Counted from the first letter of the stretch, positions 3,245 through 22,842 are shown. The stretch is 64,000 nucleotides of DNA from Crocinitomicaceae bacterium (GCA_024643545.1 JAHEMR010000003.1:1-64000); one strand, 5' to 3'. A program made the numbers and translations. Notes: generated by a model from the letters alone, not told the origin.

Positions 3245-4474
3245 TTATCCCCTAACTTTTTTCACTGCACTCATCCCAAGTTCCAGAATCATACTGAATA
3301 CTGAACGGAGTGGTGATCGTTTGCTATTCGGATCTTGACCTTTTCCCAATAAATGAATTTGATCCGTGTACCAAACGATTTCCAAAGGAAACGTTCGGTC
3401 TAAAAATGGAAATCCAGTTGTTAAGGGCTTTACCAAACTTGCCACATCTTTTCCAGAAAGTAATTCATTCGAGAAATCTGGATTTATGGCCAATGATCGC
3501 GCAATTCCAACCATGTCGCACACACCTGAAGCTAATGCTTCATTCATTCCATGGGAGGTTCTGAATCCACCAGTCAGCATCAACGGGGACTTGACGATTT
3601 TTCGCACTTCTTCGCAGTAATCCAAGAAATAAGCTTCTCTTGCCTTGGTGGATTCTTTGACATTTGTTCCCGTCATCACAGGTGTTTCGTAGGTTCCTCC
3701 CGAAATTTCGATGAGATCCATTCCCAGTTCAGATAAGTGTTTCACAACTTTCATCGAGTCCTCCATGGTAAAACCACCTTTTTGAAAATCCGCTGAATTG
3801 AGTTTGATGCTGATTGGGAAATCTGGTCCAACTTCGACGCGAATGGCTGTGTAAATTTCGCTCACAAAACGCATTCGATTTTCAATCGTTCCACCCCATT
3901 TATCCGTGCGCTGGTTATGCGTTGGAGATAGAAACTGACTCACCAGGTATCCATGTGCACCATGAATTTGGACGCCTGTGAATCCACTTTCCTTACAGAC
4001 TTTTGCTGCAAAAGCAAAGCGCTCAATGATTTCGAGAATTTCCGATTCGCTCAATTCTCTTGGCGTATTGAACACACGACTCAATGGTTTTTTCAATGGA
4101 ATTGCCGACGGCGCAACCGGTAACTTACTTAAAAACTTCGGTGACTGCTTTCCCGGATGATTGAGTTGAACCCAAATGTGCGTATCGTTTTTACGTCCCG
4201 CATTCGCCCACAATTTCAAGCATGGATCATTGATGCCTTTTTCAATGACCACATTATGTGCTTCACCAAGCGCGCGTTGGTCCACCATGACATTTCCAGT
4301 GATGAGTAATCCCGTACCGCCATCTGCCCAACGACCATAAAGCGTTTCAAAGGATCTATTTGACACAAATCCTTTTGAGCCCATGTTTTCACTCATGGCA
4401 GATTTGCCGATTCTATTTTTAATTGTTGCCCCACATGGAAGCATCAGGCTATCAGAAATGTTTGTTTTACTCAT
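3245..4474 (-). CDS. NADH:flavin oxidoreductase / Old Yellow Enzyme family
   Basis: A 409-aa single-domain FMN TIM barrel. Family hallmarks are QLNHPGKQS near residue 105, HGAHGYLVSQFLSP near 171 with the two substrate-binding histidines, and RTDKWGGTIENR just after. It belongs to the COG1902 class of NAD(P)H-dependent ene-reductases. It lacks the C-terminal Fe-S/FAD extension of 2,4-dienoyl-CoA reductase, as the protein ends soon after the barrel. The track start is TTG; the ATG one codon in (4474) is preferred. A weak -7-like TACCTTTA (reverse strand, 4502-4509) lies upstream. Physiological substrate unknown. Confidence 0.88.
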   Translation of the reverse strand: MSKTNISDSLMLPCGATIKNRIGKSAMSENMGSKGFVSNRSFETLYGRWADGGTGLLITGNVMVDQRALGEAHNVVIEKGINDPCLKLWANAGRKNDTHIWVQLNHPGKQSPKFLSKLPVAPSAIPLKKPLSRVFNTPRELSESEILEIIERFAFAAKVCKESGFTGVQIHGAHGYLVSQFLSPTHNQRTDKWGGTIENRMRFVSEIYTAIRVEVGPDFPISIKLNSADFQKGGFTMEDSMKVVKHLSELGMDLIEISGGTYETPVMTGTNVKESTKAREAYFLDYCEEVRKIVKSPLMLTGGFRTSHGMNEALASGVCDMVGIARSLAINPDFSNELLSGKDVASLVKPLTTGFPFLDRTFPLEIVWYTDQIHLLGKGQDPNSKRSPLRSVFSMILELGMSAVKKVRG

Positions 4475-4795
4475 CAAATTACTTTTGTGTCTAACTTTTC
4501 CTAAAGGTATTTAATTTCGCGAACCAAGTGCTTCATCCAAAATAAAATACAACAAATCTTCCGATTTCACATCAAAAAAAAAACAGTGAATCAACACCCA
4601 TTTTGACTTGTTTTTCAAGCACCAAATCAGCACACCGGAACTGCTTTTTCCATTGCCCATTCCCTTTTAAAACAAAGCAGAAAACACCAAAAATAATAAG
4701 GGAAAATAGGGGAAATGATAAATAAATAAAATCTTAACAAACTTAAGTTTTTTCTTAGGAACGACTTTCGTAACTTTGAAGTAAATATCAAGCTT
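4475..4795. other. Divergent intergenic region, AT-rich
   Basis: A 321-bp gap between the divergently transcribed oxidoreductase and giant adhesin genes. Apart from the promoter-like sequences for the two genes I see no RNA gene or repeat. The minus-strand ORF at 4627-4866 overlaps the adhesin start and lacks protein-like composition. Confidence 0.6.
4771..4778 (+). promoter_or_regulatory. -7 element TAACTTTG of the adhesin gene
   Basis: A perfect match to the Bacteroidota -7 consensus TAnnTTTG, 17 bases before the TTG start at 4796. The expected -33 TTTG position holds only a T-rich GTTT. It supports the TTG start, since transcription would begin about 10 bases before it. Confidence 0.55.
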
Positions 4796-7700: not shown

Positions 7701-10700
7701 CCTTCACACCACCCAATTCTTCCATCGGCAACTATTATTATTACTGTATAATTACACAAACAGGATTAAATTGTAGTGTTGTATCAAATGTCGTTCAAGT
7801 CGTTGTTAATTCCCCTCCAACAATTACTTCCCAACCACAAAACCAAACCATCTGTGTAGGTGGGACACTGACTACTTTGAATGTTGGTTTTTCAGGAGGA
7901 ACGGCGAATCCAACGTATCAATGGTATTCAAATACAACAAATGCTAACACAGGTGGGACATTACTTTCTGGTGAAACAAATGCAAACCTAACATTGCCCG
8001 CTACTTTAAATGGTACGGCTTCCAATTCCTATTATTATTGTGTCATTAACTTCGGCTCTGCTAGTGGGTGTTCAGTAATTACAAGTAATGCTGCAACAAT
8101 AAGCGTTTTAGCTGACCCTACATTTAGCGTTCAACCAATTCAATCTCAAACAATTTGTCAAGGTGGATCGTTAGCAAATCCATTAACAGTTGTAGTAATT
8201 GGCGGATCAGGGAATTCAACTTACCAGTGGTACACTGTAAATGGCACAACATATAACAGCATAGCCAATTCAAATTCAGCGAATTACAATCCATCTATCT
8301 ATTCAACAGTAGGAAACTTTACCTACGCTGTTTCAGTTACCCAAACGGTTAGTGGATGCGCTTCTACTTATTCGACAAATGCAGAAGTAATCGTCGCAGC
8401 CGACCCTACCGTTTCCATAACTTCAGGAGCAAATTATTGTCAAAATGCAAGTACAATAACCCCACTGACCGTTAGTGCAACTAATGGCAATGGATCCGCT
8501 TTTACTTACCAATGGTTTTCAAACTCAACGAATACCAATTCAGGTGGAATCCCTCAAGGGAATAGTAACAGCGCTTCATTTAGCCCACCCGTGAATGCAA
8601 CTGGAACGCTGTATTACTATTGCATTGTTACCAACGCCCCATCAAGCACTGGCTGTTCAACAACGTCCAATACTGCAGCTATAACAGTGAATGCTGGCCC
8701 TTCAATTTCGACACCACCTCAAAGTCAGGCTGTCTGTGCGGGTGGGACACTTTCTGCTTTAAATGTAGCTTACACCGGTGGAACAGGTTCTGTAACTTAC
8801 CAATGGTACAGTAATGCAACGAATACTACATCAGGTGGAACACCTGTTGGAACATCGTCAAGTTCATATGCCCTACCTTCAACACTTAACGCATCAGTTG
8901 GAACCTTCTATTATTATTGTGAACTTTCTTTTGGTGGGTCAGGGGGGTGTTCTCAAATTACCAGCTCAGTAGCAACAATTAATGTTGTGGCTAGTCCAAT
9001 AGTAACTGCTCCAAACTCACAAACCATTTGTACGGGTGGTAATCCTTTAGCTATGTCCGTGAGTGCAAGCGGTGGTATTAATTCTTCCTACAGTTATCAA
9101 TGGTACAATGCTTCAGGGGCAATTTCAACTGCAAATAGTGTTAATTATTCACCGCCATCCAGCGCCGGAACTTACTACTGCGTTGTTTCCATTTTACCGT
9201 CTACAAGCGGATGTAGTACAAACTCTGCCAATGCCACGGTTACGATTGAGCCGGACCCAACGATTTCCGCTCCACAAAGCGCGAATTATTGTCAAAATGC
9301 AGGTACTGTTGCAGCATTATCCGTAACCGCAAATGGTGGGATTAGTTCTGCATATGTTTACCAATGGTATAGTAACACGAATAATAATACTTCTTCAGGT
9401 ACAGCAATTTCTGCTGCAAATGGCGGCACATCTGCTTCATACACTCCACCTGTAAACAACACCGGAACACTTTACTATTTTTGCGTAGCAAGTATCAATC
9501 CTAGTTCAACAACTGGTTGTTCTGTTACTTCTGATATTGCAACCATCACCGTCAATGCTGGTCCAACTATTACCACGCCACCTCAAAGTCAGGCTGTCTG
9601 TGTGGGCGGGACACTTTCTGCTTTAAATGTAGCTTACACCGGAGGAACAGGTTCTGTAACTTACCAATGGTACAGTAATGCAACGAATACTACATCAGGT
9701 GGAACACCTGTTGGAACATCGTCAAGTTCATATGCCCTACCTTCAACACTTAACGCATCAGTTGGAACCTTCTATTATTATTGTGAACTTTCTTTTGGTG
9801 GGTCAGGGGGGTGTTCTCAAATTACCAGCTCAGTAGCAACAATTAATGTTGTGGCTAGTCCAATAGTAACTGCTCCAAACTCACAAACCATTTGTACGGG
9901 TGGTAATCCTTTAGCTATGTCCGTGAGTGCAAGCGGTGGTATTAATTCTTCCTACAGTTATCAATGGTACAATGCTTCAGGGGCAATTTCAACTGCAAAT
10001 AGTGTTAATTATTCACCGCCATCCAGCGCCGGAACTTACTACTGCGTTGTTTCCATTTTACCGTCTACAAGCGGATGTAGTACAAACTCTGCCAATGCCA
10101 CGGTTACGATTGAGCCGGACCCAACGATTTCCGCTCCACAAAGCGCGAATTATTGTCAAAATGCAGGTACTGTTGCAGCATTATCCGTAACCGCAAATGG
10201 TGGGATTAGTTCTGCATATGTTTACCAATGGTATAGTAACACGAATAATAATACTTCTTCAGGTACAGCAATTTCTGCTGCAAATGGCGGCACATCTGCT
10301 TCATACACTCCACCTGTAAACAACACCGGAACACTTTACTATTTTTGCGTAGCAAGTATCAATCCTAGTTCAACAACTGGTTGTTCTGTTACTTCTGATG
10401 TTGCTACGATTACTGTAAACCTATCTCCATCTTTTGCTACACAACCCATTGCCAATCAAACGATTTGTCTAGACGGGAATTTTACCCCATTGAATGTGGT
10501 ATATCAAAATGGTACAGGAACACCAACGTATCAATGGTACAGTAATACGGTAAACAATACGTCGAACAGCACACTTATCCAAAATGAAACAAATGCAAGC
10601 TACACTCCTACTAGTAACGTTATTGGCACAACTTATTATTACTGTGTAGCTACGTTCGCATCTGGAGGTTGTTCGTCGATTATTTCTACAATATCCACTG

Positions 10701-13700
10701 CTATTGTAGTCGCTGATCCAACAATTAGTCTTCAGCCCTCCCCTGCTCAAACGATTTGTGTGGGTGGAACCCTTTCAAATTCTTTAAGCGCTACTTCCGT
10801 AAATGGTACAGGAAATATTTCTTATCAATGGAGTTCTTCCTCAGGAAATATTCCTGGCGCAACGAGTCAAACCTACCTTCCACCATCCTTTAGTACAGTG
10901 GGTTCTTATTCTTATTTTGTGACCATTACCCTCAGTGGAAGCGGATGTAATGCTGCTATTTCTCAAAATGCAGTCATTGATGTAATTGCTGATCCTGTTG
11001 TTAGTGTACAGCCGATTGATGCGGCATATTGTCAAAATGCGAGTCCCATTACGCCATTAAGTGTATCCGCAACTGGAGGTCTGGGAACGTTTTCTTACCA
11101 ATGGTACAGCAATTCTTCCAATACTAATAATGGTGGAATATTAATTCCTGGTGCAACACTTAATTCCTATACTCCATCTGTTTCCAATACGGGTGTTCAA
11201 TATTATTACTGTTTAATTTCTCAAACTGGTCTAAATTGTTCTGTATCATCTGCCACTGCTGCTGTAACTGTCAATCCAGCTCCTACTTTTTCAACGCAGC
11301 CAATTGCTTCGCAAACCATTTGTTTGAATGGAACATTAAATCCATTAAGTGTTGTTTATCAAAATGGAACTGGAGTTCCGACATATCAATGGTTTAGCAA
11401 TTTTGTGAATTCAACATCCGGAGGTACAGCGATTTCAGGTGAAACTACTAGTACTTATTCCCCGCCTTCTAATACTGTTGGCACAACGTACTATTATTGT
11501 GTTGCTACTTTTTCATCTGGAGGATGTACAGCAATTACCTCTACCCTTGGAACAGTTGTCATCCTTGCAGACCCAACCATCAGTACACAACCTATTCCAT
11601 CACAAAGTATCTGCGTCGGAGGAACCATTGCAACCGCTTTATCTGCTTCGTCAACCGGAGGTACAGGAACAATAAGTTACCAATGGAGTAATTCTTCAGG
11701 AGCAATAACAGGTGCAACAAGTCAAACGTTTTTACCCCCATCATTTTCAAATACTGGCCAATTTAACTTCACTGTTACAATTACGCTAAGTGGAAGTGGA
11801 TGTGACGCGCTGACATCCAATCTTGCCTTAATCGATGTTGTTTCTGACCCAACGGTTTCAACACAACCAGTTGGAACTTCCTATTGTCAGAATGGGTCAC
11901 CTGTTTCTCCATTAACCGTTGCAGCGACAGGTGGAATTGGAACCTTTAGCTATCAATGGTACAGTAATTCCGTAAATAGTAATATTGGGGGGACTTTGAT
12001 TCCTTTGGCTTCAAGTACATCTTATACACCTCCTGTTTCAACTGTTGGAACTACCTACTACTATTGTGTGATTTCCCAATCGGGATTAAATTGTGGAGTT
12101 ACAACTAATACAGCCGCAATTATTGTCAATCCCGCACCAACGTTTTCAACTCAACCAATTACATCACAGACCATTTGTCTGGATGGAACATTTAATGCGT
12201 TAACAGTAGTCTACCAGAACGGTACTGGAGTGCCAACTTATCAATGGTTTAGTAATGCAACAAGTAGTACGTCAAACGGGACAATTCTTCCAAATGAGAC
12301 GAATGCAACTTATACTCCACCGAGTAGCACTGTCGGGACAACCTACTATTATTGTGTTGCGACATTCGCTTCAGGGGGGTGTTCTGCTATTACTTCCAAT
12401 TTAGCTACAGCTACTGTTGTGGACGATCCTTCGATAAGCATACAGCCAATTCCAACGCAGAGCATCTGTGTTGGAGGAACAATTGCAAATGCCTTAACAG
12501 CCACTTATGTTAATGGAACCGGTACTGTTACTTATCAATGGAGCAATTCAACCGGAAGTATTTCGGGAGCTACGAGCCAAACCTATTTACCACCAGCTTT
12601 TTCAACAGTTGGAGCTTATACTTATTTCGTTACCATTACTTTGAGTGGGAGCGGTTGTAATGCAACAATTTCTCAAAATGCAGTCATTGATGTTGTGGCA
12701 GATCCAGTGGTGAGTGTACAGCCGATTTCCGCCAGTTATTGTCAGAATGGAACTCCGGTAGCACCACTTACCGTTGGCGCTACAGGTGGAATAGGAAATT
12801 TCTCATATCAATGGTATAGTTCAAATTCAAATAGTGTTAATGGTGGAACTATTATTTCTGGAGCAAATTCATCTACTTATACTCCTTCGGTAACAAACAT
12901 AGGCACCATCTATTATTATTGCGTCATTTCACAATCTGGATTAAATTGTTCGGTGACGTCAAATACGGCTGGAATAATTGTTAATCAGGCTCCAGTTTTC
13001 TTGACTCAACCAGTGAGTCAAACAATCTGTACAGGTGGTGTTTTTGATATGCTCTCGGTTAGTTATCAATTCGGAACCGGGGTACCAACCTATCAATGGT
13101 ATTCGAACACCACAAACAGCTACACTGGGGCCGTTGCGATTGCCGGCGCAAATTCACCTACATATCAAGCACCTTCGAGCAGCACGGGAAGCAACTTTTA
13201 TTTTTGTGATATCAGTTTTAGTTTCGGTGGATGTTCGAACATTTCTTCCTCCATCTCCAATCAAGTGGTGGTGGTAGATCCAACTATCACCACTCAACCA
13301 TTGCCAAATCAAACAATTTGCGTGGGAGGTACAATTTCTAGTCCTTTGAATGTCATTGTTTCGGGAGGAACAGGAATAACCACGTATCAATGGTTTCAAG
13401 GAACCAATCAAATCATTAATGCTACGCAAAGCACCTTTTTACCCGTTAGTTTTGTCAACGCTGGAATGTACACTTATCAAGTTAATATTAATTCAACAGG
13501 TGTTGGATGTGCTGCATTGATTTCACAACAAGTGAATGTGGAAGTTCTTGATGATCCATTAGTCACTTCACCGACATCAGCTATTTATTGTCAAAATTCA
13601 CCCGTAGTAGCACCTCTTCAAGTGATTGTGAGTGGTGGTGCCGGCACAAATAACTACCAATGGTATTATTCCGCTTCAAATTTGAATTCTGGTGGACTTC

Positions 13701-16700
13701 AAATTGCTGGAGCCAGTACCTCATCCTATTTACCATCCGTTAGTGTTGTTGGAACAAGTTATTATTATTGCATTGTGACCCAATCCACTCCCAATTGCTC
13801 GAACGTTAGTAATAATGCAGCAATCCAAATTAATCAACCTCCAACGATAAGTGCGCAACCTATCCAAAGTCAAACAATCTGTGAAGGAGGTACACCTTCT
13901 CAATTACAAGTATCCTACATAAATGGTACAAATTCAGCAACTTATCAATGGTATGTTTCCAATACAAATTCCAACACCGGTGGTGCGCCAATTTTAAATG
14001 AAACCAATTCATTTTATACCCCACCAACGATTTTGATTGGTTCCAACTACTACTATTGTGTAATTACATTTCAATCTGGTGGATGTTCGACCTTGACATC
14101 GGCAACTGCACAAGTTTCAGTGGTCAACGACCCTGTAATAAACACTCAACCTTTAAATGCGCAGGCCATCTGTCAAGGAAACACAATTAACTCACCCTTG
14201 AATTTCACTTATAGTGGTGGAACGGGAAATTCAACTATTGCTTGGTACTTAAACACGACACCTCCAATATTGATCAATGGTGTAACAACCTCTTCTTTTT
14301 TACCTGTTCCATTTAACGTGGCCGACACCTTCTTCTATTATGCTACCCTAACTTTTGATGGCATTGGCTGCAATAGTGTAAGCACACAACAAGCAGAAAT
14401 TATCGTTCATCCAACTCCATTTGCTTTAAATTTGAATGACACCATTGTGGTTTGTAACCATGGAAATTTGGCTATTCCATTAACGGCATCTGTCACTTCA
14501 ACATTTGTATGGCATACCACAAATAATCCAGCAGTTACTGGAGAGAGCTTTTTAAATCAAACAAGTTACTCGATTGATGATTCATTAAGCAACAATTCAA
14601 CAAGTCCTCAGTTCTTAACGTATACGGTGACACCGACTTCCTTCCCATTTGGATGCGTTGGACCTGATTCAACGGTAACAGTTCAAGTTCAGCCGGATGT
14701 GATATTATCCATGAATCCAAGCATGGAAATTTGTAGTGATAGTCCAGTAAATGCGATTTTAACCTCAAACATTCCTTCTACATTTTCGTGGTTTGTATCT
14801 GTTAATAATCCTAACGTAACTGGTGAATCCATCCTGCCAAGTTCGAGTCCTTTGGTCAATGATGTTTTGGTTAATACCTCTTCGGTTAACCAGGTTGTAG
14901 TATATGCTGTGTTTCCGATTTCGATTCAAGGCCAATGTGCGGGAACTGCTCAACCGCTCCTAGTAACAGTTAAACCTCCGATTCAATTATTAAATCCAGA
15001 TACATTAACCATCTGTAGCGGACAAAATACAAACATAAACCTAGTAGCGAACACCAATGTTCAATTCAATTGGTATGCGTCCCCTTCTTTAAATGTAATC
15101 GGCGAAACAACCTCGGTAGTGAGTTCTGCGCTCATCAATGACGTGTTATTAAACCTTACAAATGCCGTTGAGACGGTTACGTACAATGTTATCGGGACTT
15201 CGTCTGCGAACGGTTGTTCAAGTCCGGTTCTTCCACTTTATGTCGTTGTGAATCCAATTCCGGAGGTCTTTGATGCGAATCCTATCACCATTTGTAATGG
15301 CGCCTATTTGTATCCAGTAAGTTTACAAACAACTGTCTCGGGAGGAACAACGAACTGGACTGTATTGAACAACAACATTGGAATTCCTTCCAACTTTGGA
15401 TCAAATACACTCCCTGGTTTTACGGCAATTAATAATTCCATCATTACTCAAACTGGCCAAATCTCTGTCACTCCAATTCATACAAATAATAGTGTGACAT
15501 GTATTGGAAATGACACGACTTTATTGATTCACGTTTTACCTACACCGACAGTCAACTCCATCCAAGATATCGTTGCCTGTAAGTTAGAGCAAGTACCTTT
15601 AACACCCCTCTCTGGACCTGTTCCAAATACCGTTTATCAATGGGTGAATGCGAATACAACTGTTGGATTAAACGTAAGTGGTATTGGTGATATCCCCTCT
15701 TTCGTTGGGCAAAATTCAGGACTTATTCCAATTTCGGGTACTGTCTCCGTGTCTCCAACATACAGTGAGAACAATGTGAGTTGTCAAGGTGCTCCAATCG
15801 ACTTTACGATTACCATTAATCCTAGTCCAACTTTATTAAACAATGACATCGAAATTTGCGACGGAACGAATACAAACATTCTATTGAATGCAAACATATC
15901 CAGCACATTCCTTTGGAACGCCACAATAAATCAAAATGTCTATAATGAAACGAGTACACCGATTCAAACAGGGGCGTTCATCAATGACTTGTTAGTATTA
16001 GCAGGCACAACGATTCAAACAGTTGAATACAACATCACCCCAATTTCAACGCCTTATGGTTGTTATGGAAATGAAACGACAATAAACGTTCTAATCAATC
16101 CGTTACCGATTGTTGACTTTTCCATCATAAATCCCATTCTTTGTAATCAATCAAGCATCAATTTCCAGAATAATTCTGTTGGACCTCTAGCCTATACGTG
16201 GGCGTTTGGTGATGGTGATTCATCTTTCCTTTTCAATCCAGTTCACGAATACATTAATTTCGGTTCTTATCTTGTTACTTTGGGTGGAATTGACCAAATA
16301 ACTGGTTGTGAGAACCAAGATAGTCAAACCCTTATCATTCACGAAACACCTGAACCCGATTTCATTCAATCTGACAGCATTGCCTGTGGAAGCTTAGAGG
16401 TTTTATTTACGGCGCTTGATTTGAATCCAACATGGCAATACCAGTGGGATTTCGGTGATGGTGCATCTTCCAATCAGTTTGGCCTTACAGGGCATCAATT
16501 CGTTACAAGCGGTTGTTTTGATGTTACGCTGGTCGTAACAACACCTGAAGGATGTACATCGGATTCCACACAACTTTCTGCCGTTTGTATTTATCCAGAA
16601 CCTGTTGCATCTTTCTCCATTGACGATGCCGTTCTCAGTTCATTAGCACCTGAAGTGACGTTCTTCAATACCTCCGTTCACGCTGATACGTATCTATGGG

Positions 16701-17173
16701 ATTTTGGAGACAATACGACGAGCATCACCCAAGATCCAACACATCTTTATCCTTCCGACCCTGCGACTTACGTAATTGTTTTAACCGCAAGTAATTTCAT
16801 CGGTTGTCAAGATACAGCAGCCTTAACCGTTACTGTATTCCAAGATTTGGCGATTTATGTACCGAACACCTTTACTCCAGATGGGGATGAATATAATCAA
16901 TCTTTCTTACCAATTCTAACAGAAGGATTCAAGAAAGAAACATACCACCTGACTATTTTTGATAGATGGGGAGCAGTCGTTTTTGAGTCCAAAGATTATC
17001 GATTCGGATGGGAAGGAACGTACAAATTCAGCGAACATGGTCCGGTTAAAAACGGATTATTTTTCAAGGACATTACCTGTCCAGATGGAACATACATTTG
17101 GAAAATCTCGATTGAAGTCCTTCAAACAGGAGAAGTAAAAGAGTTTTTAGGCCATGTGAATTTGTTGAGGTAG
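4796..17173 (+). CDS. Giant multi-Ig-domain surface protein with T9SS type B sorting domain
   Basis: The product has 4125 aa. A signal peptide (FVLLAFFVLANSYTNAQ) covers residues 1-27. Residues about 30-820 hold diverse Ig/PKD-like domains; about 821-3205 hold an array of roughly 25 Ig-like domains of 90-100 aa; about 3206-3770 hold PKD-like domains of another type (VTGES-x-VNDVLVN pattern); about 3774-4015 hold three PKD domains (AFGDGDSS, DFGDGASS, DFGDNTTS). Residues 4019-4125 form the gliding motility-associated C-terminal (type B) domain, with VPNTFTPDGDEYN and FDRWG. It is therefore exported by T9SS and displayed on the surface, probably as an adhesin. No PorP/SprF gene is adjacent. The start is TTG, as no ATG is in frame near the signal peptide. 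Confidence 0.9.
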   Translation: MNTLSTRFKIFVLLAFFVLANSYTNAQCVGSSVTLGADQYYCAGTPVTLTPTVSNAPTGTATYSWTFQSNPISPNPTGTTYTIPANQSGTYAVTITYGPNCVITDEVVIGFLPVPTIGSNQCISTGNAANLSVNFSPALPSGVNATYAWTGPNGFTSSSSNPSISSFNSLNSGSYNVTVSFNTSSSSTCTYNLTTNLYLTPSTPSFSIPSNGCPGTNYSPTGFTVQPNTSYSWSISQSSNSTGLNSSAPVFNFTNSGINSITVTATQNGCSSTSSSQGISILNLGLNDPDIAPTSSPNSYLASPVPFGGALTYKICGSNNVSSVQISNFPPSSNNSATQYSITWGNNPPINFANGSSTTQSILIGNNPFTISASYGGCTTSINYNIYVGSNPYVSVGVGNSTGLCPGQNVIANITPVGQLGQQNSPGTTYSLYFSNNPNTIVQTFTDLTSTTAAQPVVFNQSSCGNAPLNNCYPSQANVYYAYVVATNACDNSCANSPAITINDKPDANFTVSKSIVCPNSNITITNTGTNGNTISGSATSGYSCSINTKIKYVISPNSGFTVVSGDLGGNSGNFNNWTGTNTVVLNFTSPGTYTIKQYAQSNNCGSDSIIKTICVINPPISVISPYSTIQCSPATLSLSSNSILPTCGTTPIPVAYLWSVTNPTGCSSCSNTISSPTSANSNFSFTNNSNSIQTYTVNLSVTPLDPITNLPLSGPGCSNTSSIPIQVYPSVQITPITTCNGTLNWNLANQVNVPSTFTWQAADNAYVSGETTTSQSTSSITDVLVNNSTTAQTVTYTVNAVSVTGSCTATNTFTVNLVTPLSVQALTNQTICVGGGLSAPLVLNYSGGSGSATFSWSLNSSTSQIATTASYSPPSFNTVGSYLYTGTVFSGPSGCVQTVSQSATITVVADPTITTQPINASYCQNASPVTPLSVIATGGTGSFNYQWYSNLNNTNSGGQSISGANLSTFTPPNSSIGNYYYYCIITQTGLNCSVVSNVVQVVVNSPPTITSQPQNQTICVGGTLTTLNVGFSGGTANPTYQWYSNTTNANTGGTLLSGETNANLTLPATLNGTASNSYYYCVINFGSASGCSVITSNAATISVLADPTFSVQPIQSQTICQGGSLANPLTVVVIGGSGNSTYQWYTVNGTTYNSIANSNSANYNPSIYSTVGNFTYAVSVTQTVSGCASTYSTNAEVIVAADPTVSITSGANYCQNASTITPLTVSATNGNGSAFTYQWFSNSTNTNSGGIPQGNSNSASFSPPVNATGTLYYYCIVTNAPSSTGCSTTSNTAAITVNAGPSISTPPQSQAVCAGGTLSALNVAYTGGTGSVTYQWYSNATNTTSGGTPVGTSSSSYALPSTLNASVGTFYYYCELSFGGSGGCSQITSSVATINVVASPIVTAPNSQTICTGGNPLAMSVSASGGINSSYSYQWYNASGAISTANSVNYSPPSSAGTYYCVVSILPSTSGCSTNSANATVTIEPDPTISAPQSANYCQNAGTVAALSVTANGGISSAYVYQWYSNTNNNTSSGTAISAANGGTSASYTPPVNNTGTLYYFCVASINPSSTTGCSVTSDIATITVNAGPTITTPPQSQAVCVGGTLSALNVAYTGGTGSVTYQWYSNATNTTSGGTPVGTSSSSYALPSTLNASVGTFYYYCELSFGGSGGCSQITSSVATINVVASPIVTAPNSQTICTGGNPLAMSVSASGGINSSYSYQWYNASGAISTANSVNYSPPSSAGTYYCVVSILPSTSGCSTNSANATVTIEPDPTISAPQSANYCQNAGTVAALSVTANGGISSAYVYQWYSNTNNNTSSGTAISAANGGTSASYTPPVNNTGTLYYFCVASINPSSTTGCSVTSDVATITVNLSPSFATQPIANQTICLDGNFTPLNVVYQNGTGTPTYQWYSNTVNNTSNSTLIQNETNASYTPTSNVIGTTYYYCVATFASGGCSSIISTISTAIVVADPTISLQPSPAQTICVGGTLSNSLSATSVNGTGNISYQWSSSSGNIPGATSQTYLPPSFSTVGSYSYFVTITLSGSGCNAAISQNAVIDVIADPVVSVQPIDAAYCQNASPITPLSVSATGGLGTFSYQWYSNSSNTNNGGILIPGATLNSYTPSVSNTGVQYYYCLISQTGLNCSVSSATAAVTVNPAPTFSTQPIASQTICLNGTLNPLSVVYQNGTGVPTYQWFSNFVNSTSGGTAISGETTSTYSPPSNTVGTTYYYCVATFSSGGCTAITSTLGTVVILADPTISTQPIPSQSICVGGTIATALSASSTGGTGTISYQWSNSSGAITGATSQTFLPPSFSNTGQFNFTVTITLSGSGCDALTSNLALIDVVSDPTVSTQPVGTSYCQNGSPVSPLTVAATGGIGTFSYQWYSNSVNSNIGGTLIPLASSTSYTPPVSTVGTTYYYCVISQSGLNCGVTTNTAAIIVNPAPTFSTQPITSQTICLDGTFNALTVVYQNGTGVPTYQWFSNATSSTSNGTILPNETNATYTPPSSTVGTTYYYCVATFASGGCSAITSNLATATVVDDPSISIQPIPTQSICVGGTIANALTATYVNGTGTVTYQWSNSTGSISGATSQTYLPPAFSTVGAYTYFVTITLSGSGCNATISQNAVIDVVADPVVSVQPISASYCQNGTPVAPLTVGATGGIGNFSYQWYSSNSNSVNGGTIISGANSSTYTPSVTNIGTIYYYCVISQSGLNCSVTSNTAGIIVNQAPVFLTQPVSQTICTGGVFDMLSVSYQFGTGVPTYQWYSNTTNSYTGAVAIAGANSPTYQAPSSSTGSNFYFCDISFSFGGCSNISSSISNQVVVVDPTITTQPLPNQTICVGGTISSPLNVIVSGGTGITTYQWFQGTNQIINATQSTFLPVSFVNAGMYTYQVNINSTGVGCAALISQQVNVEVLDDPLVTSPTSAIYCQNSPVVAPLQVIVSGGAGTNNYQWYYSASNLNSGGLQIAGASTSSYLPSVSVVGTSYYYCIVTQSTPNCSNVSNNAAIQINQPPTISAQPIQSQTICEGGTPSQLQVSYINGTNSATYQWYVSNTNSNTGGAPILNETNSFYTPPTILIGSNYYYCVITFQSGGCSTLTSATAQVSVVNDPVINTQPLNAQAICQGNTINSPLNFTYSGGTGNSTIAWYLNTTPPILINGVTTSSFLPVPFNVADTFFYYATLTFDGIGCNSVSTQQAEIIVHPTPFALNLNDTIVVCNHGNLAIPLTASVTSTFVWHTTNNPAVTGESFLNQTSYSIDDSLSNNSTSPQFLTYTVTPTSFPFGCVGPDSTVTVQVQPDVILSMNPSMEICSDSPVNAILTSNIPSTFSWFVSVNNPNVTGESILPSSSPLVNDVLVNTSSVNQVVVYAVFPISIQGQCAGTAQPLLVTVKPPIQLLNPDTLTICSGQNTNINLVANTNVQFNWYASPSLNVIGETTSVVSSALINDVLLNLTNAVETVTYNVIGTSSANGCSSPVLPLYVVVNPIPEVFDANPITICNGAYLYPVSLQTTVSGGTTNWTVLNNNIGIPSNFGSNTLPGFTAINNSIITQTGQISVTPIHTNNSVTCIGNDTTLLIHVLPTPTVNSIQDIVACKLEQVPLTPLSGPVPNTVYQWVNANTTVGLNVSGIGDIPSFVGQNSGLIPISGTVSVSPTYSENNVSCQGAPIDFTITINPSPTLLNNDIEICDGTNTNILLNANISSTFLWNATINQNVYNETSTPIQTGAFINDLLVLAGTTIQTVEYNITPISTPYGCYGNETTINVLINPLPIVDFSIINPILCNQSSINFQNNSVGPLAYTWAFGDGDSSFLFNPVHEYINFGSYLVTLGGIDQITGCENQDSQTLIIHETPEPDFIQSDSIACGSLEVLFTALDLNPTWQYQWDFGDGASSNQFGLTGHQFVTSGCFDVTLVVTTPEGCTSDSTQLSAVCIYPEPVASFSIDDAVLSSLAPEVTFFNTSVHADTYLWDFGDNTTSITQDPTHLYPSDPATYVIVLTASNFIGCQDTAALTVTVFQDLAIYVPNTFTPDGDEYNQSFLPILTEGFKKETYHLTIFDRWGAVVFESKDYRFGWEGTYKFSEHGPVKNGLFFKDITCPDGTYIWKISIEVLQTGEVKEFLGHVNLLR
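7258..14413 (+). repeat. Three-domain super-repeat in the giant protein
   Basis: Ig-like domains recur in the strict order A-B-C. A domains carry (Q/A)xxC-x-GG...YYYC...GGCS. B domains begin DPT...QxICVGG, lack YYYC and usually end SGSGC. C domains begin with YCQN and usually contain YYYC...LNCS. I read one leading B-C, seven full A-B-C triplets and a trailing A-B, about 25 domains in total. The period is about 290 residues, so growth was by copying triplets rather than single domains. Confidence 0.85.
8714..10441 (+). repeat. Near-exact 864-bp tandem duplication (one A-B-C triplet)
   Basis: Positions 8714-9577 and 9578-10441 are two copies of one triplet in direct tandem. Reading them side by side, 8780-9535 and 9644-10399 (756 bp) look identical, with three substitutions in the 66 bp before and divergence after. 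This is far more similar than any other pair of triplets and indicates a recent duplication or gene conversion. Confidence 0.9.
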
Positions 17174-17228
17174 AACAATAAGAACTTTCTAAAAACCAAA
17201 AATCCTCATGAAAACACGCTTATTGTTC
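17173..17228. other. 10-bp perfect inverted repeat between convergent genes
   Basis: GAACAATAAG at 17173-17182 and CTTATTGTTC at 17219-17228 are perfect reverse complements separated by 36 bases. It lies between the convergent adhesin and GldM-like genes and may form a weak bidirectional terminator, although no T-run follows. Confidence 0.4.
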
Positions 17229-17255
17229 GAATAATTCAATAATTCATTCCTATTT

Positions 17256-17594
17256 CTATTTAGGAGCATTCGGCATAACTTTGAAAATAAAATTTCCATA
17301 AACTTTCCCTTGTCCTAAAAGAGTGATTGTAAGATAAGTGCAACTTGGAACATCACTGATTTTAAAACAATCATAAGTTTTACCAGAAACAGTATATACA
17401 GTCTTTTCAATCTTACATGGTCGATCAGCCTTGATTGTATATTTATTTTTAGCGATACCCGGGATATACCAGAGATTATCATAATTTCTGTATAACGTTT
17501 GTTCATTTAATTGAGGGTTAACCATCCACATATCCTGTGACATGACATTCATACTGATCAAAAAGAAAGCAATTGATAAAAGGTGATTTTTCAT
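17256..17594 (-). CDS. Small secreted protein resembling a GldM C-terminal domain
   Basis: A 112-aa product with a signal peptide ending MNVMSQ. The mature part (PQLNEQTLYRNYDNLWYIPG, then a strand-rich stretch ending FIFKVMPNAPK) resembles by eye the Ig-like C-terminal domain of GldM, which has an LYxGxxN start and FxVKxxPxP end. GldM is the periplasmic T9SS motor subunit; this protein lacks the rest of it. It is the last gene of a minus-strand group of small secreted proteins. The similarity is an impression to be tested by a profile search. Confidence 0.6.
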   Translation of the reverse strand: MKNHLLSIAFFLISMNVMSQDMWMVNPQLNEQTLYRNYDNLWYIPGIAKNKYTIKADRPCKIEKTVYTVSGKTYDCFKISDVPSCTYLTITLLGQGKVYGNFIFKVMPNAPK

Positions 17595-17615
17595 TTTGTA
17601 AGGTTTAAAGGGTTA

Positions 17616-17996
17616 TTAATCCGGTATTCGTTTACATATAAATTCCCGGTAATCAAATCCACCAACCTCATTTTCCGTTGGTGTTTGAATCGTCACATGT
17701 ATATAATCCTCTAAAAAGCTTAGCTCAATAGCAAACTCATTCCCATCCTTATCTAAGGACGGAAACATGAACGTGCTGTCATCTATTTCGAATTCTTCGT
17801 AAATATCGAACTGCTCCGTTTTAAAACCATAGAGTGTCACCTTATAATTGGTCACATCGAATATAATTAATCGCTTAGATTCAGATTGTTGCTTTTCACC
17901 ATTTATTTCGACCTCCTCATAATGCGCACGCAATCGAAAGTTCTGAGCTTGACCGAAATTTGAAATCATCAGGAAAATGAAGACTAATTTATACAT
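17616..17996 (-). CDS. Small secreted protein of unknown function
   Basis: A 126-aa product with an N-terminal signal peptide (MYKLVFIFLMISNFGQAQ). The rest is acidic and predicted mostly beta, with a single cysteine near the C-terminus. I recognise no family. It is 21 bp upstream of the GldM-like gene and 34 bp downstream of the DUF1566-type gene in the same orientation, so it is probably co-transcribed with both. Confidence 0.65.
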   Translation of the reverse strand: MYKLVFIFLMISNFGQAQNFRLRAHYEEVEINGEKQQSESKRLIIFDVTNYKVTLYGFKTEQFDIYEEFEIDDSTFMFPSLDKDGNEFAIELSFLEDYIHVTIQTPTENEVGGFDYREFICKRIPD

Positions 17997-18030
17997 AGTA
18001 GACTCAATTATTTATACCTGTGGGTCTTAA

Positions 18031-18747
18031 TTATTCTTTTCTATTCTTTTTGTAGGTTCTCACAGCACGAACATAATTGGTAGCTGTGGTGCTCTTATAA
18101 AAACTTGTGGTCTTTGAAAAATTGTACACTTCAGCTTCCGTTCCAATTTCATTTATATCACAACTCCAATATGTTGCATTATCCATATCAAAATTACTTC
18201 TATACCTGGACATAAGTATCAATTCTTCGTATGTTGGCAATCTCCATCCTTTTCCTAATTTGGCACATTCGTTACTTGCATCAGTCCAATTCATACCATC
18301 AGCAAAGTCAAATTGAGAAACTTCTATATCTCCAATTCTCACTGGATTACCCAAGATTTCTTCATACGAAGGTTTTTCAATCTTTTCACCGATTACTATG
18401 GACATAAAATCCTCTTCAAATTCCGTATATTCATCTTTTATGAACTTCAGCCGAACAACATATCCTGATTCAGTCTTCGCAAGGTATACAACGTATACCA
18501 TATCAGGTTGCTCGGGCTTTTGCAAATGATTATTGATAAGCGGATCATGGTTTTTATCTATATCTACCGTTTCTAAATCAACATCATTAATTTTCAAGAC
18601 CTCCTTGCACTTTTCAATGGCAGCATTTTGATCCGAAGTGTAGTAACTAAAGTTGCCTAAACTATCATCAGGCTGAAACCCCAAAATTGGTGTCCACTGT
18701 GCTTTGGCACTCCCAGCCAACAACAACATAATAAATAACTTTCTCAT
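18031..18747 (-). CDS. Secreted protein, island-specific N-domain fused to DUF1566-like C-domain
   Basis: A 238-aa product with signal peptide MRKLFIMLLLAGSAKA. Residues about 17-120 are clearly paralogous to the product of the gene at 18901-19371 (QWTPI-GF start, KEVLKxNDV, DPLIN-HL, RLKFIKDEYxExEEDF). Residues about 140-238 match the DUF1566/Lcl C-terminal fold, with MNWTDASNECAKLGKGWRLPTYEEL, a motif of formylglycine-enzyme-like/C-type-lectin-like domains that bind sugars or proteins. Its ATG overlaps the stop of the hidden 46-aa membrane ORF upstream (ATGA), so the two are translationally coupled. Function unknown. Confidence 0.75.
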   Translation of the reverse strand: MRKLFIMLLLAGSAKAQWTPILGFQPDDSLGNFSYYTSDQNAAIEKCKEVLKINDVDLETVDIDKNHDPLINNHLQKPEQPDMVYVVYLAKTESGYVVRLKFIKDEYTEFEEDFMSIVIGEKIEKPSYEEILGNPVRIGDIEVSQFDFADGMNWTDASNECAKLGKGWRLPTYEELILMSRYRSNFDMDNATYWSCDINEIGTEAEVYNFSKTTSFYKSTTATNYVRAVRTYKKNRKE

Positions 18748-18884
18748 CTTAAAAGATATTGGTTAGTAAATACAACTGAATAGAACATCATACCGACAAA
18801 GCCGGTTGATACGCCTGCAACTCTAATAAAAGCAAAGCGAGAATGTGCCGTGATTATCATCACAGCGAAATATAGAATGGCCAT
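18744..18884 (-). CDS. 46-aa two-helix membrane protein (hidden small ORF)
   Basis: The ORF is below the track's length cut-off. It starts at ATG 18884 and stops at TGA 18744-18746, sharing ATGA with the next gene. The product, starting MAILYFAVMIITAHSRFAFI, has two hydrophobic segments split by a His-Ser-Arg turn. It fills exactly the gap between two paralogous secreted-protein genes, and the same two-helix layout is present, fused, at the N-terminus of the upstream paralogue. That placement and the stop/start overlap argue that it is real. Confidence 0.65.
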   Translation of the reverse strand: MAILYFAVMIITAHSRFAFIRVAGVSTGFVGMMFYSVVFTNQYLLR

Positions 18885-18900
18885 TTTAGTTAAGATTAAA

Positions 18901-19371
18901 TTACTTTTCTCCTTCATAATAAATTGTCACAAAATCCTCTTCAATTTCTATGTACTCATCTTTTATGAACTTCAATCGAACAGCATATCCAGTAGTTGTC
19001 TTAACCACATATACCCAATAGATCATTTCAGGTTGTTCCTCTTTTGATAAATGTATGTTAATCAGGGGGTCCTGATGTTTACTCACAACCACTGTAGACA
19101 TATTCACATCATTTACTTTGAGGACTTCCTTACACATATCAATGGCTTTTTGTTTGTCATTGGTGTAAAAATTAAAATTGCCTGCAAGATTTTCTTGAAA
19201 TCCCTCAATGGGTGTCCACTGGGCTGAGACAATTTGCGCGAATGCTAGCATGATGCCGATAAACATACCGGCCGATAGCGTATACCCTACGATTGCCCGG
19301 ATGATGTAGTTGTTGATGCGTGCCGCCTGAACCAATAGGATAGCCGACACAATTGGGATTAAGATGTACAT
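18901..19371 (-). CDS. Membrane-anchored or secreted paralogue of the DUF1566-type protein's N-domain
   Basis: The product has 156 aa. Two hydrophobic segments (MYILIPIVSAILLVQAA and AIVGYTLSAGMFIGIMLAF) precede AQIVSAQW, so it is either a two-pass anchor or carries a long signal with cleavage before QW. Residues 51-156 align along their length with the N-domain of the 238-aa protein downstream and then stop, lacking the DUF1566 part. No known family recognised. It is 16 bp upstream of the 46-aa ORF and 36 bp downstream of the SH3-domain gene. Confidence 0.7.
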   Translation of the reverse strand: MYILIPIVSAILLVQAARINNYIIRAIVGYTLSAGMFIGIMLAFAQIVSAQWTPIEGFQENLAGNFNFYTNDKQKAIDMCKEVLKVNDVNMSTVVVSKHQDPLINIHLSKEEQPEMIYWVYVVKTTTGYAVRLKFIKDEYIEIEEDFVTIYYEGEK

Positions 19372-19407
19372 AGTTAGTTAAGATTAAGTCGTTCGGTGGA
19401 TTTGTTT

Positions 19408-20187
19408 CTAATTATTAAACGTTTTTTCATCAATTTTTTTCGTATTCAAATTATTGAGGTCCGCTTTGCTATTTGATTTAACACCTAATTTTATTTCATA
19501 GGTGGAAAAATTGATGTAATTACCCATATCCTGTTGGTTAAACTCTAAAACATCACTGCTTTTTTCATAAAGGGCGTTCTTTGTAAACCGAACAATGCAC
19601 TTTTCGTTACTAAATCCCTGCCTAAAATCTTTGCCATAAGCCAATTTCAGATAATAAGAACCAAAGGGAATATTCTTCATCGTGAATTGATCCCCTCCCC
19701 GCACATAAGCGATTCTAATGCATTCAGATGATCCGTAACTATTCCTCATTAACTTCACGACACAATCGTAATCATACATCATTTTTATTGTTAATTTGCA
19801 AAGCGAATTTTGGTCATATTTAGATTGAATGTTCTCGCATTCTGGCTCCTCCCCCGTTGAGTAATCTACTTTTTTCCATAGTTCATATGGATCAGCAGAT
19901 TTAGTCAAATATTTTGATGAAACATAACCTATACTTTCCATAGAGTTAACCTGTGTCCAATTCTCATCCCAATCATACACAGCGATTACATCGGTATTGG
20001 CTGGTATAACTTTAATTATTTCAGAATTTGCATTCGGACTTGAACGAAGATTGACAGAAGTCGTCGTTCTTTTGGTCATTTGAGCAAATAATACTTTTGA
20101 GAATAATGTTAAAGCTAACACAAGAAAAAAATTAGAATTCAATTTCGCCAGTATTAGGCCTTTTATAAAGCGTGTCATTTGTTTCAT
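19408..20187 (-). CDS. Secreted SH3-domain protein
   Basis: I choose ATG 20187 (259 aa) over the track's TTG at 20235 because a signal peptide (FFLVLALTLFSKVLFAQ) then follows at a normal distance. Mature residues start with a bacterial SH3 domain (TTSVNLRSSPNANSEIIKVI...GYVSSKYL). After it comes a Cys-containing region with DCVVKLM and GGDQFTMKNIPFGSYYLKLA, a strand pattern I do not recognise as a named family. SH3b domains usually bind peptidoglycan or protein ligands in the periplasm or at the surface. It appears to be first in the minus-strand group ending at 17256, with a palindrome 119 bp upstream. Confidence 0.72.
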   Translation of the reverse strand: MKQMTRFIKGLILAKLNSNFFLVLALTLFSKVLFAQMTKRTTTSVNLRSSPNANSEIIKVIPANTDVIAVYDWDENWTQVNSMESIGYVSSKYLTKSADPYELWKKVDYSTGEEPECENIQSKYDQNSLCKLTIKMMYDYDCVVKLMRNSYGSSECIRIAYVRGGDQFTMKNIPFGSYYLKLAYGKDFRQGFSNEKCIVRFTKNALYEKSSDVLEFNQQDMGNYINFSTYEIKLGVKSNSKADLNNLNTKKIDEKTFNN

Positions 20188-20305
20188 TTTTTGGTAATTT
20201 AATTCTAGGTGCTTTCGAGTGGTAGTTACCCTCAAAATGATAGATGTAAATAAGCGAGCCTAAAAATATTACAGCTAAAGTTGGACCCAATAAATTTTTA
20301 CTTAT

Positions 20306-20319
20306 CGGCATATATGCCG
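20306..20319. promoter_or_regulatory. Palindrome CGGCATATATGCCG (putative operator 1)
   Basis: A perfect 14-bp palindrome in the 232-bp gap between the SH3-protein start and the XRE gene stop. The same 16-base context (T...T on the plus strand) recurs with one mismatch at 20678-20691 on the other side of the regulator gene. Confidence 0.65.
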
Positions 20320-20419
20320 TCTAAATTAACGAGAAATATCAAAACGACACATAAATAACCTCTAAATATCTTTCGATGAGCTATTAAAAATTAATAAGTG
20401 ACCTAAAAAATGTAACGAT

Positions 20420-20644
20420 TTACATTAATTCCGCTTCCTGAATGATACTTGAAATGGATGTGTTTAATGCCTTGGAAATTTTGGATAAAACTTCTATACT
20501 TACGTTCTGATGCCCCTGTAACACTCGTCTAATCGTGCGTTCATCAATGTCAGCTGCTATAGAAAACTCCAATTTACTCTTATATAGTAGCACATATTTT
20601 TGTTGAATAACAATACCTATATTTTTCAATAACTCCTGTGACAT
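20420..20644 (-). CDS. XRE-family helix-turn-helix regulator
   Basis: The 74-aa product starting at ATG 20644 (MSQELLKNIG) is a lone HTH domain: KSKLEFSIAADIDERTIRRVLQGHQNVSIEVLSKISKALN is the classic Cro/C1 helix pair with its following helix. The longer track version begins inside the divergent promoter. There is no sensor domain, so it is probably a small autoregulated repressor. Two matching palindromes flank the gene: one overlaps the divergent promoter, the other lies before the SH3-protein gene. That arrangement suggests it controls the secreted-protein genes on both sides (inference). Confidence 0.85.
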   Translation of the reverse strand: MSQELLKNIGIVIQQKYVLLYKSKLEFSIAADIDERTIRRVLQGHQNVSIEVLSKISKALNTSISSIIQEAELM

Positions 20645-20677
20645 AAACAAATGTCGCCTTGTTTCACACAGACAGTT

Positions 20678-20691
20678 CGGCATATTTGCCG
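20678..20691. promoter_or_regulatory. Palindrome CGGCATATTTGCCG (putative operator 2)
   Basis: It differs from operator 1 by one base, which breaks the central pair. It lies 34 bp upstream of the regulator's ATG and contains the -33 TTTG of the divergent promoter, so a bound protein would block that promoter. Confidence 0.65.
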
Positions 20692-20716
20692 TTTCGGATA
20701 TTTATCGATAATTTTG
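20685..20716 (+). promoter_or_regulatory. Promoter TTTG-N20-TAATTTTG for the rightward secreted genes
   Basis: TTTG at 20685-20688, a 20-base spacer, then TAATTTTG at 20709-20716; both elements match the Bacteroidota consensus. Transcription would begin just before ATG 20732. Confidence 0.65.
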
Positions 20717-20731
20717 ACAAAAATATTCTGT

Positions 20732-21175
20732 ATGAATTTTAACTTTTTATTTGCCTTTTTAAGTCTGACTGTTCTGAATGTAAATGCCCAATACGGAAGA
20801 CAGATTGGATTAGAAGATTTAGGAAAAACGTATTATTCGGATGTTAAAAATTCACAATCAATAAAACCATGTGAGGAATCACCAGGAAAAGCCATAACCT
20901 ATTGTGTCGAAGATGGTAGTAAAATCACATACACTTTTGATAATTACAAACTTACAGGAATTGTCAATCTTACAGCATTCCCTTTAAAATCTCAAGCAGA
21001 GGCTGAATACATTAAAGTAATTAATGAACAATCCAAGAAGACGGGAATTCAACCTTTCTATTCTAATGGAATGGCCCTATTTAATAAAAGTAATTCGAAT
21101 ATCTCATTAGCGTTTCAAGTTATAGAAATTGGTGGGACATATTACCTCGCGAACTATTTTACAATTCCTTTCTAA
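20732..21175 (+). CDS. Small secreted protein of unknown function
   Basis: The product has 147 aa from ATG 20732; the track's start at 20651 would run through the operator and promoter. A signal peptide (MNFNFLFAFLSLTVLNVNAQ) is present. The mature protein has an early Cys pair (PCEESPGKAITYC) and no family I recognise. It is first of three rightward genes (gaps of 11 bp and 1 bp) likely forming one operon under operator 2. Confidence 0.7.
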   Translation: MNFNFLFAFLSLTVLNVNAQYGRQIGLEDLGKTYYSDVKNSQSIKPCEESPGKAITYCVEDGSKITYTFDNYKLTGIVNLTAFPLKSQAEAEYIKVINEQSKKTGIQPFYSNGMALFNKSNSNISLAFQVIEIGGTYYLANYFTIPF

Positions 21176-21186
21176 ACAAAAAGCAT

Positions 21187-21702
21187 ATGAAATTTGTGCT
21201 CTCCGTCTGTTTCTGGTTCACCATTTTGAACGTTAATTCCCAAGTGTCAAATTTTTACGGAATAGACATGAATAAAGATTGGTATTCGTTAACAGATCTT
21301 AGCAAAATATCATATGAGATTTATTCTCATGAATTCCCCGATGCACCATATGTTTCTGCCCCTCCCTGTAAAGCGATTTCCTTGGCTCAATTCAATAAAC
21401 TTGGTTTAGGTGATGTACAATTACATTTTGAACGAAACGTTAATTCGGACTTTCATTTTTTCAAACCAAAGATGTGCTCTGCCAGTAAAGTTTACAATGA
21501 CGATGCAACTTTCAATACTGTTGGACAAAAAGAATACTCCAATGTGAAGTCAGATTTAATACAAAAGTATGGTCAACCAACTCAAAATGTAAATGGAACA
21601 GTGGCCAAAACAAGCTATTGGAATTCGACTAATTATGAAGTAATATTAACCTTGGATTTAAACACTTTAGAACTCCTATTATTGTACCAAACCAAAGATT
21701 GA
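21187..21702 (+). CDS. Small secreted protein of unknown function
   Basis: The product has 171 aa with signal peptide ending LNVNSQ. Mature residues contain two cysteines (PPCKAI and KMCSAS) and a C-terminal QKYGQPTQNVNGT...YWNSTNYEVILTL block that looks like a strand-turn-strand lipoprotein-type module. No family recognised. It is the middle gene of the three-gene rightward unit; its TGA is one base from the next ATG. Confidence 0.7.
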   Translation: MKFVLSVCFWFTILNVNSQVSNFYGIDMNKDWYSLTDLSKISYEIYSHEFPDAPYVSAPPCKAISLAQFNKLGLGDVQLHFERNVNSDFHFFKPKMCSASKVYNDDATFNTVGQKEYSNVKSDLIQKYGQPTQNVNGTVAKTSYWNSTNYEVILTLDLNTLELLLLYQTKD

Positions 21703-21703
21703 A

Positions 21704-22768
21704 ATGAACCAAACTACCATGAAAGCAATAAAACCCTCCTCATTTTTCCTTTTAATCCTTCTATCCATTTCATTTCTTGCGCAAAGTCAAGGTGAGCTCT
21801 CCCCTCTCGAACCGGAGGTGAAATTTGAAAAGCTAAAATTACCAAATGGAGAAACGTATATCGGACAAACGGAATTTCATCAGCCCAGTGGCATCGGTTC
21901 AAAAATTGACGCGAGTGGCAAAGTTAAAACTGGTTATTTCCAAGAAAACAAATACTTAGGGGATTTCATCATGACTCCTCCATGGCATATTGTAGATGTC
22001 GAATTTTATTTGGACACTGATTATGTCTTCAACAGCTATTCTGTTGACTTAAACATTCTCACACCTATTCCTAATGACACGTATTTGTACATCGCGCCAT
22101 TCGGCTCTGGTTACATAAATGACATTCTATATTATGGCGGTATCCAAACTCACACAGGTGGGTATAAAAACCCAAACCATAATAATGAGAAGACTGCATT
22201 TACGGAAATTGGAAGAGCAATGATTTTCTCAAGATGGGACGAACGAAGTCCTGAAGCTATTTTCATGGATTCTAGTGGGGTTTGCGAAAGTAGTGGCTAT
22301 GAAGGAGATTTTGTTTCCGTTCGAAATGCGCTCAATTGGACAACCGGAAAATATACGTTCAAAATTGAGAAGTTAAATAACTACACAAATATCAATTCTG
22401 TAAAACATTCGATTGTTCAAATGACCGTTTACGAACATAAAACAAAGAAAACCTTCAACTGTGGAGCATTGGCATTCCCGGGAGATCAACTAACACTTAG
22501 TTCCTCACAGTTTTTATTCTTTGAGCTATACGGTAAGAGAATTAACGTAAACCAAATGCCATACGCAAAATTTGAATGTAGCAATTTTCAAATTGACGGC
22601 AAACCAGTTGCTATTTCAAGTGCTGGTGCACTTTACCCAAAAGACTTTCCTAAATATGGAGCTGCAACTTATTCTAACGGAAAGTTCACAATTGAAATCG
22701 GCAAACCCAGTTTTACTGAATTAGGAGAAAATGAAGAATCCTATTTTGAGGTATTGAAAAGTAATTGA
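21704..22768 (+). CDS. Secreted protein with an N-terminal MORN-like repeat
   Basis: The product has 354 aa. Signal peptide residues 1-29 (ILLSISFLAQSQ); ATG 21719 is a possible internal start. A single MORN-like motif (KLPNGETYIGQTEFHQPSGIG) near residues 44-64 is followed by KTGYFQENKYLGDF. The following 280 residues are strand-rich with Trp- and Gly-rich loops (IAPFGSGYINDILYYGGIQTH), reminiscent of a lectin/jelly-roll domain, but I cannot assign a family. Last gene of the rightward unit, convergent with the OmpA-family gene. Confidence 0.7.
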   Translation: MNQTTMKAIKPSSFFLLILLSISFLAQSQGELSPLEPEVKFEKLKLPNGETYIGQTEFHQPSGIGSKIDASGKVKTGYFQENKYLGDFIMTPPWHIVDVEFYLDTDYVFNSYSVDLNILTPIPNDTYLYIAPFGSGYINDILYYGGIQTHTGGYKNPNHNNEKTAFTEIGRAMIFSRWDERSPEAIFMDSSGVCESSGYEGDFVSVRNALNWTTGKYTFKIEKLNNYTNINSVKHSIVQMTVYEHKTKKTFNCGALAFPGDQLTLSSSQFLFFELYGKRINVNQMPYAKFECSNFQIDGKPVAISSAGALYPKDFPKYGAATYSNGKFTIEIGKPSFTELGENEESYFEVLKSN

Positions 22769-22842
22769 AAAGCACTAATCTATTGCATTTCTAACTTTCC
22801 AGGATACAAGACTCTTTTGAGACCTTTTTATCTCCATTAATA

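Follow-up and report, generated by a model that had tools for sequence, protein, structure and literature searches.

Lambda-type cI repressors act at an operator common to two divergent promoters, which lie at asymmetric distances from it, and their own mRNA is leaderless. To our knowledge, few transcription factors of Bacteroidota have known sites. CylR2, a small single-domain HTH_3 protein of the Enterococcus faecalis cytolysin operon, is a repressor that acts at an operator, with the regulator genes divergent from those of the exported product (PMC5454873); it acts in concert with a membrane protein, CylR1, and with a peptide signal. The C proteins of restriction-modification (R-M) systems (C.BclI, C.AhdI, C.Esp1396I, C.Csp231I) have a site upstream of their own gene and act as both activators and repressors of that gene, whose transcript is leaderless (PMC4824078).

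The locus described here lies in a 64,000-nucleotide stretch (the window) that is part of contig C33 of a 2.75-Mb Crocinitomicaceae genome, and is organized around a lone gene for a small helix-turn-helix (HTH) regulator. Size, fold and gene layout, as known here from sequence and model, fit CylR2, whereas no CylR1-like gene was recognised at the locus and the cargo genes are unrelated. Size and fold are also those of the C proteins, and the operator and its spacing from the regulator gene fit them in sequence. The window has a single site at the regulator promoter, however, and the C-boxes quoted in PMC4824078 differ in sequence from the window operator. Since Pfam and PADLOC searches with the ten proteins of the locus revealed neither a restriction enzyme nor a methylase, we do not file the regulator as a C protein. 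With lambda-type cI it has in common an operator shared by two promoters, the asymmetric distances and a predicted leaderless mRNA, but it has no C-terminal dimerisation/cleavage domain, and no prophage genes were recognised beside it. By analogy, the most likely type of mechanism is an autoregulated single-domain switch of the CylR2 or R-M C-protein kind that would repress strain-variable exported cargo.

The regulator and the flanking palindromes

The features of the locus are collected in Table 1. The regulator scores 28.1 bits against Pfam HTH_3 (cut-off 23), and its AF2 model (mean pLDDT 93) contains five helices; domain and fold together assign it to the XRE / HTH_3 (Cro/C1-type) proteins. 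By sequence, its PDB relatives are CylR2 and C.BclI, CylR2 (1utx) being the closest solved relative by sequence profile (E 3.5e-5). By fold, they are C.BclI, C.AhdI, C.Esp1396I, ClgR and SinR, and the matches to C proteins have Z of 11-13 and rmsd of 1.2-2.1 Å. A longer ORF of 87 aa begins within operator B. Judged from relatives, which begin at the MSQ/MSK position, this is probably not the real start. Among defence and phage families, only generic HTH matches were retrieved for the regulator. A search for relatives on viral contigs returned one weak relative, which was judged a chance match.

As the original prediction held, matching palindromes stand on both sides of the HTH gene, TCGGCATATATGCCGT on the left (20305-20320) and TCGGCATATTTGCCGT on the right (20677-20692). 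They are not common genome-wide: the pattern CGGCATATNTGCCG is found twice in the 2.75 Mb searched, both times beside the HTH gene and nowhere else, and the reversed control pattern gave no match. When up to three mismatches were allowed, the pattern matched 24 and 26 places on the two strands, compared to 9 and 17 for the control, an excess that comes partly from palindromes being counted twice. A terminator or a chance repeat was ruled out, as there is no loop and no T-run and only two copies exist in the genome. The position of operator B relative to the HTH start is the one seen in relatives. Neither GGCATATATGCC nor any autoregulated XRE palindrome of Bacteroidetes was found in a literature search that covered subscription journals thinly.

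Table 1. Features of the locus (window coordinates)
Feature	Position	Strand	Remarks
18.4-kb segment (giant CHU_C-type gene and island)	4475..22841	.	absent from G002 and G015, which have a common junction
112-aa secreted protein	17256..17594	-	signal peptide by eye; no Pfam family
126-aa secreted protein	17616..17996	-	signal peptide by eye; no Pfam family
238-aa secreted protein	18031..18747	-	N-terminal domain shared with the 18901..19371 protein; Lcl_C-like C-terminal domain
156-aa membrane/exported protein	18901..19371	-	paralogue of the 18031..18747 protein
Secreted SH3_3-domain protein	19408..20187	-	heads the leftward genes; SH3_3 37.7 bits, cut-off 27
59-aa ORF, doubtful gene	20132..20311	-	membrane segment; ATG within operator A; end overlaps the SH3 gene; no Pfam family
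Operator A (putative)	20306..20319	.	CGGCATATATGCCG; separates the 3' end of the HTH gene from the SH3-led leftward set
74-aa single-domain XRE (HTH_3) regulator	20420..20644	-	Pfam, AF2, PDB relatives
Predicted HTH -7 element	20648..20655	-	GACATTTG; spacing of 22 nt to operator B and of 3 nt to the following ATG
Operator B (putative)	20678..20691	.	CGGCATATTTGCCG; separates the HTH gene from the divergent secreted genes
Predicted divergent promoter	20685..20716	+	TTTG within operator B, N20, TAATTTTG (20709-20716)
147-aa secreted protein	20732..21175	+	first divergent gene; signal peptide by eye; no Pfam family
171-aa secreted protein	21187..21702	+	no Pfam family
354-aa secreted protein	21704..22768	+	MORN-like stretch near the N-terminus, by eye; no Pfam match

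Palindrome and recognition helix across the family

Homologues of the regulator were found in 22 of 299 genomes of the order and, by profile search, in 47 of 395 genomes of the class. Among 21 close relatives across the class, the window's own included, 19 have a G/C-ended palindrome no more than 110 bp upstream, while 4.6% of random 110-bp stretches from the same loci do; a stricter palindrome rule gave 16 of 21 and 2.3%, respectively. The palindromes of close members include CGGCATATATGCCG, CGGCATAAATGCCG, CGCCATATATGGCG, CGTCATATATGACG, CGGAATATATTCCG and GGACATTTATGTCC, among others. In 22 of 24 members (four two-palindrome members were excluded), bases 3-4 of the operator correspond to the residues of the recognition helix: TIRR goes with GC, CC or TC, TIRL with GA and TIQR with AC. 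None of 200,000 permutations reached the observed match, a figure that overstates independence, as the family members share ancestry. Since, in addition, operator classes, helix classes and the 22-nt offset discussed below were all set after looking at the data, the palindrome and covariation counts are not independent tests. Within these limits, the family offers a testable code that connects a short recognition helix with a 14-bp operator.

Members with a helix of the TRTIRRI or TRTLRRI type (TR or RT preceded by D, G or S) carry another palindrome, in exact or degenerate form, that covers the -7 region of their own HTH gene, and in this resemble the two-site C proteins; the subgroup is seen at loci L038, L040, L043, L015, L127 and L128.

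The palindrome alone is not diagnostic, since most matches retrieved by a palindrome-only search of 399 genomes of the order (CGGCATTTTTGCCG and others) have no HTH gene nearby; such matches are probably chance or unrelated. One genome (G142, locus L082) contains eleven copies of the pattern CGGCATTTATGCCG and no HTH match, and these copies are possibly the regulon of another regulator or a repeat.

The window's genome encodes a second family member (G000:C34:11561-11776, L013), with the palindrome CGGAATATATTCCG upstream and a membrane-anchored protein as the product of the divergent gene. This paralogue is apparently differently specific from the window regulator, and the two could therefore be orthogonal switches.

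Promoter geometry and the proposed switch

The promoter consensus of Bacteroides consists of a -7 element, TAnnTTTG, and a TTTG near -33; the -33 motif is reported as not identifiable in Flavobacterium johnsoniae (PMC7366714), and the -7 consensus of F. psychrophilum is TAnnTTTG (PMC9723704). A scan for σ70-type promoters was uninformative, this being the wrong promoter type here. In operator B, the sole non-palindromic base creates the TTTG (20685-20688) of TTTG-N20-TAATTTTG, which faces the secreted genes, and the expectation that one palindrome covers the -33 of the divergent promoter was thus borne out. A TTTG that lies in the operator and faces the divergent gene at promoter spacing is present in G042, G640 and G712 as well. 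The HTH-side promoter at operator B has no TTTG -33 box.

We compared this geometry in the 29 family members with a site. On the HTH side, a -7-like xAnnTT[T/C] starts exactly 22 nt from the operator in 16 of them, and a further four have it at 23 nt. Shuffled flanks yielded the 22-nt element in 0.65 cases on average and in five at most, which, given the common ancestry of the members, again overstates independence. In 24 of the 29, the distance between the operator and an in-frame HTH start codon is 33-36 nt. Since the start codons are only a few nucleotides past the -7 element, a leaderless HTH mRNA is predicted; against this stands the rarity of such mRNAs in the phylum (PMC7366714, PMC9723704), where they made up only 5.5% of an mRNA set in F. 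psychrophilum (PMC9723704). On the divergent side, TAnnTT[T/C] is found 16-19 nt from the operator in 17 members and 7-9 nt from it in six.

The explanation that fits best, and that we consider probable, is an autoregulated XRE switch in which operator B represses the divergent secreted genes and operator A reaches the SH3-led genes. A dimer of the 74-aa protein would bind both operators: B, which separates the HTH gene from the divergent secreted genes, and A, which precedes the leftward set headed by the SH3 gene. Occupation of operator B would cover the -33 region of TTTG-N20-TAATTTTG and repress the secreted genes; we favour repression because of this occupied -33 and of the likeness to CylR2 and the C proteins. 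On the HTH side, operator B lies near -40 and a TTTG -33 box is missing, from which we infer that the bound protein would activate, or at most weakly limit, its own leaderless promoter, in the manner of cI and C proteins. The same two features, with an operator centre at about -40, could be taken to mean that the protein is an activator at both promoters, acting from near -40 at one and near -33 at the other. On the cargo side, however, the operator is placed directly over the -33 region, with a TTTG there in four members, and activation at both promoters appears very unlikely.

Alternatively, the regulator may control only itself; operator B would then serve the HTH promoter, and the secreted genes would be bystanders in a common intergenic region. 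Of all features, the distance of 22 nt to the HTH -7 element is indeed the most constant, and the divergent partners across the family are unrelated in sequence. Yet a divergent -7 element stands at one of the two preferred distances from the site in 23 of 29 members, four operators themselves contain a TTTG directed at the cargo, and one of the two sites in the window is not at the HTH promoter. The divergent gene is also exported more often than its neighbours: a signal peptide was predicted for 15 of 24 divergent genes and for 90 of the 298 remaining genes at these loci (Fisher p=0.0024), by a simple hydrophobicity rule that missed the window's own gene, with locus L041 entered twice and one probably spurious ORF included. 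We therefore regard pure autoregulation as unlikely.

In the repressing switch that we prefer, the action of operator A is the weakest step. The -7-like CAACTTTA starts 22 nt downstream of operator A on the - strand, an offset that is the same as in the HTH promoters, and with this sequence and spacing operator A probably brings the SH3-led genes under the control of the same HTH protein. This role is made doubtful by an alternative promoter reading, ATTG-N18-AATATTTT, and by the 59-aa ORF that starts inside the site. A second site 3' of the HTH gene was not seen in close relatives.

Exported cargo and the variable segment

Three secreted genes run rightward from operator B, and the SH3-led leftward set comprises at least five genes within 17256-20187. 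By eye, all products other than the regulator have a signal peptide or a membrane segment, and for most no Pfam or NCBIfam family was found; in these respects the original description of the island is accurate. Out of nine cargo ORFs searched against Pfam (59-aa ORF included), the SH3 protein alone exceeded the cut-off, and the Lcl_C match fell just under it (33 vs 34.9 bits). The paralogues 18031-18747 and 18901-19371 are 61% identical over 112 aa. Single-sequence folding of the 147-aa protein gave an unusable model (pLDDT 45). The cargo matched no defence family in PADLOC, i.e., no sign of anti-phage defence was found there, and its matches to phage families were weak or at the level of domains only.

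The 147-aa protein has matches in five of the 299 order genomes (its own and four others) and the SH3 protein in nine (its own and eight others), most of them weak. Among the genomes with matches to these two secreted genes, only the window's own has an HTH match. In the eight loci read, none of the cargo homologues is next to an HTH gene of this type, and none has the palindrome. Homologues of the 147-aa protein were found in G099 and G117, the latter with a protein resembling the 171-aa one (by eye) beside it.

These data bear on the proposal that the island is a coherent, undescribed exported system with a dedicated repressor of its own. The exported appearance of all products other than the regulator and the recurrence of the pair in G117 are what this proposal would lead one to expect. 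However, the G117 pair adjoins a different XRE type, orthologues of the regulator occur without these genes, and homologues of the cargo occur without this HTH protein and its palindrome, which makes a dedicated system highly improbable. The part of the original prediction in which a single XRE protein, probably a repressor, acts through the two matching palindromes is well supported by comparison. The part that made the locus a single exported system fails, because in the genomes compared the neighbours are not conserved together with the HTH gene and the same exported genes do not accompany it elsewhere; the regulator-operator unit itself stands.

The closest orthologues of the regulator (G002 and G061, 51-53% identity) are located between PorP/CHU_C genes and a PqqD-HprK-NTase operon, in which HprK-like and nucleotidyltransferase-like genes follow the PqqD-like gene (all three named by eye). 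A PqqD-like gene is divergent from the HTH gene and operator in three genomes, G002, G061 and G490, the last from another family. In the window's genome, the PqqD operon is elsewhere, with neither the HTH gene nor a comparable palindrome before it. In G026, the orthologue lies among genes for small secreted proteins whose sequences differ from those of the window. The unit that recurs is a cassette of regulator, operator and divergent promoter.

Loci of the PqqD type are L011, L035, L124 and L070. In L070 (genome G331), the operator is kept before the PqqD-like gene, and the HTH gene, beside a FISUMP-like gene, is truncated after a few codons, which speaks against the proposed switch.

Tentatively, and as a real possibility, such cassettes may be portable throughout the class. 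A lone XRE switch resembling a C protein, its promoter geometry fixed and its helix-to-operator code readable, would be joined repeatedly, at variable loci, to unrelated cargo that is mostly exported; surface and secreted proteins would thereby come under strain-specific control, each insulated from the others. The cassette suggests a route by which unrelated secreted-protein genes in variable islands could be repressed individually.

The variable segment itself proved larger than originally described, 18.4 kb being absent in relatives. In G002 and G015, only about 70-85 bp separate the counterpart of window positions 3246-4474 from that of positions 22842 onwards (nucleotide identity about 78-82%), from which the absence of the segment follows. 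Apart from the island, the segment encodes a 4125-aa giant secreted protein of the CHU_C type (4796-17173), whose gene has internal repeats with a period of about 860 bp and contains the long repeats that were found. The exported proteins of the island may, at a guess, be surface or adhesion-related factors beside this giant protein. GC content is 34-36% over the secreted genes compared to about 38-42% in much of the flank, and no direct repeats were noticed by eye at the segment boundaries in the junction sequences. The simpler explanation is an insertion in the lineage of the window; loss in the relatives is possible. Where G002 and G015 have this empty junction, another genome, G208 (L149), carries different CHU_C-type genes, and comparison of the three suggests that the junction is a hot spot for large secreted proteins.
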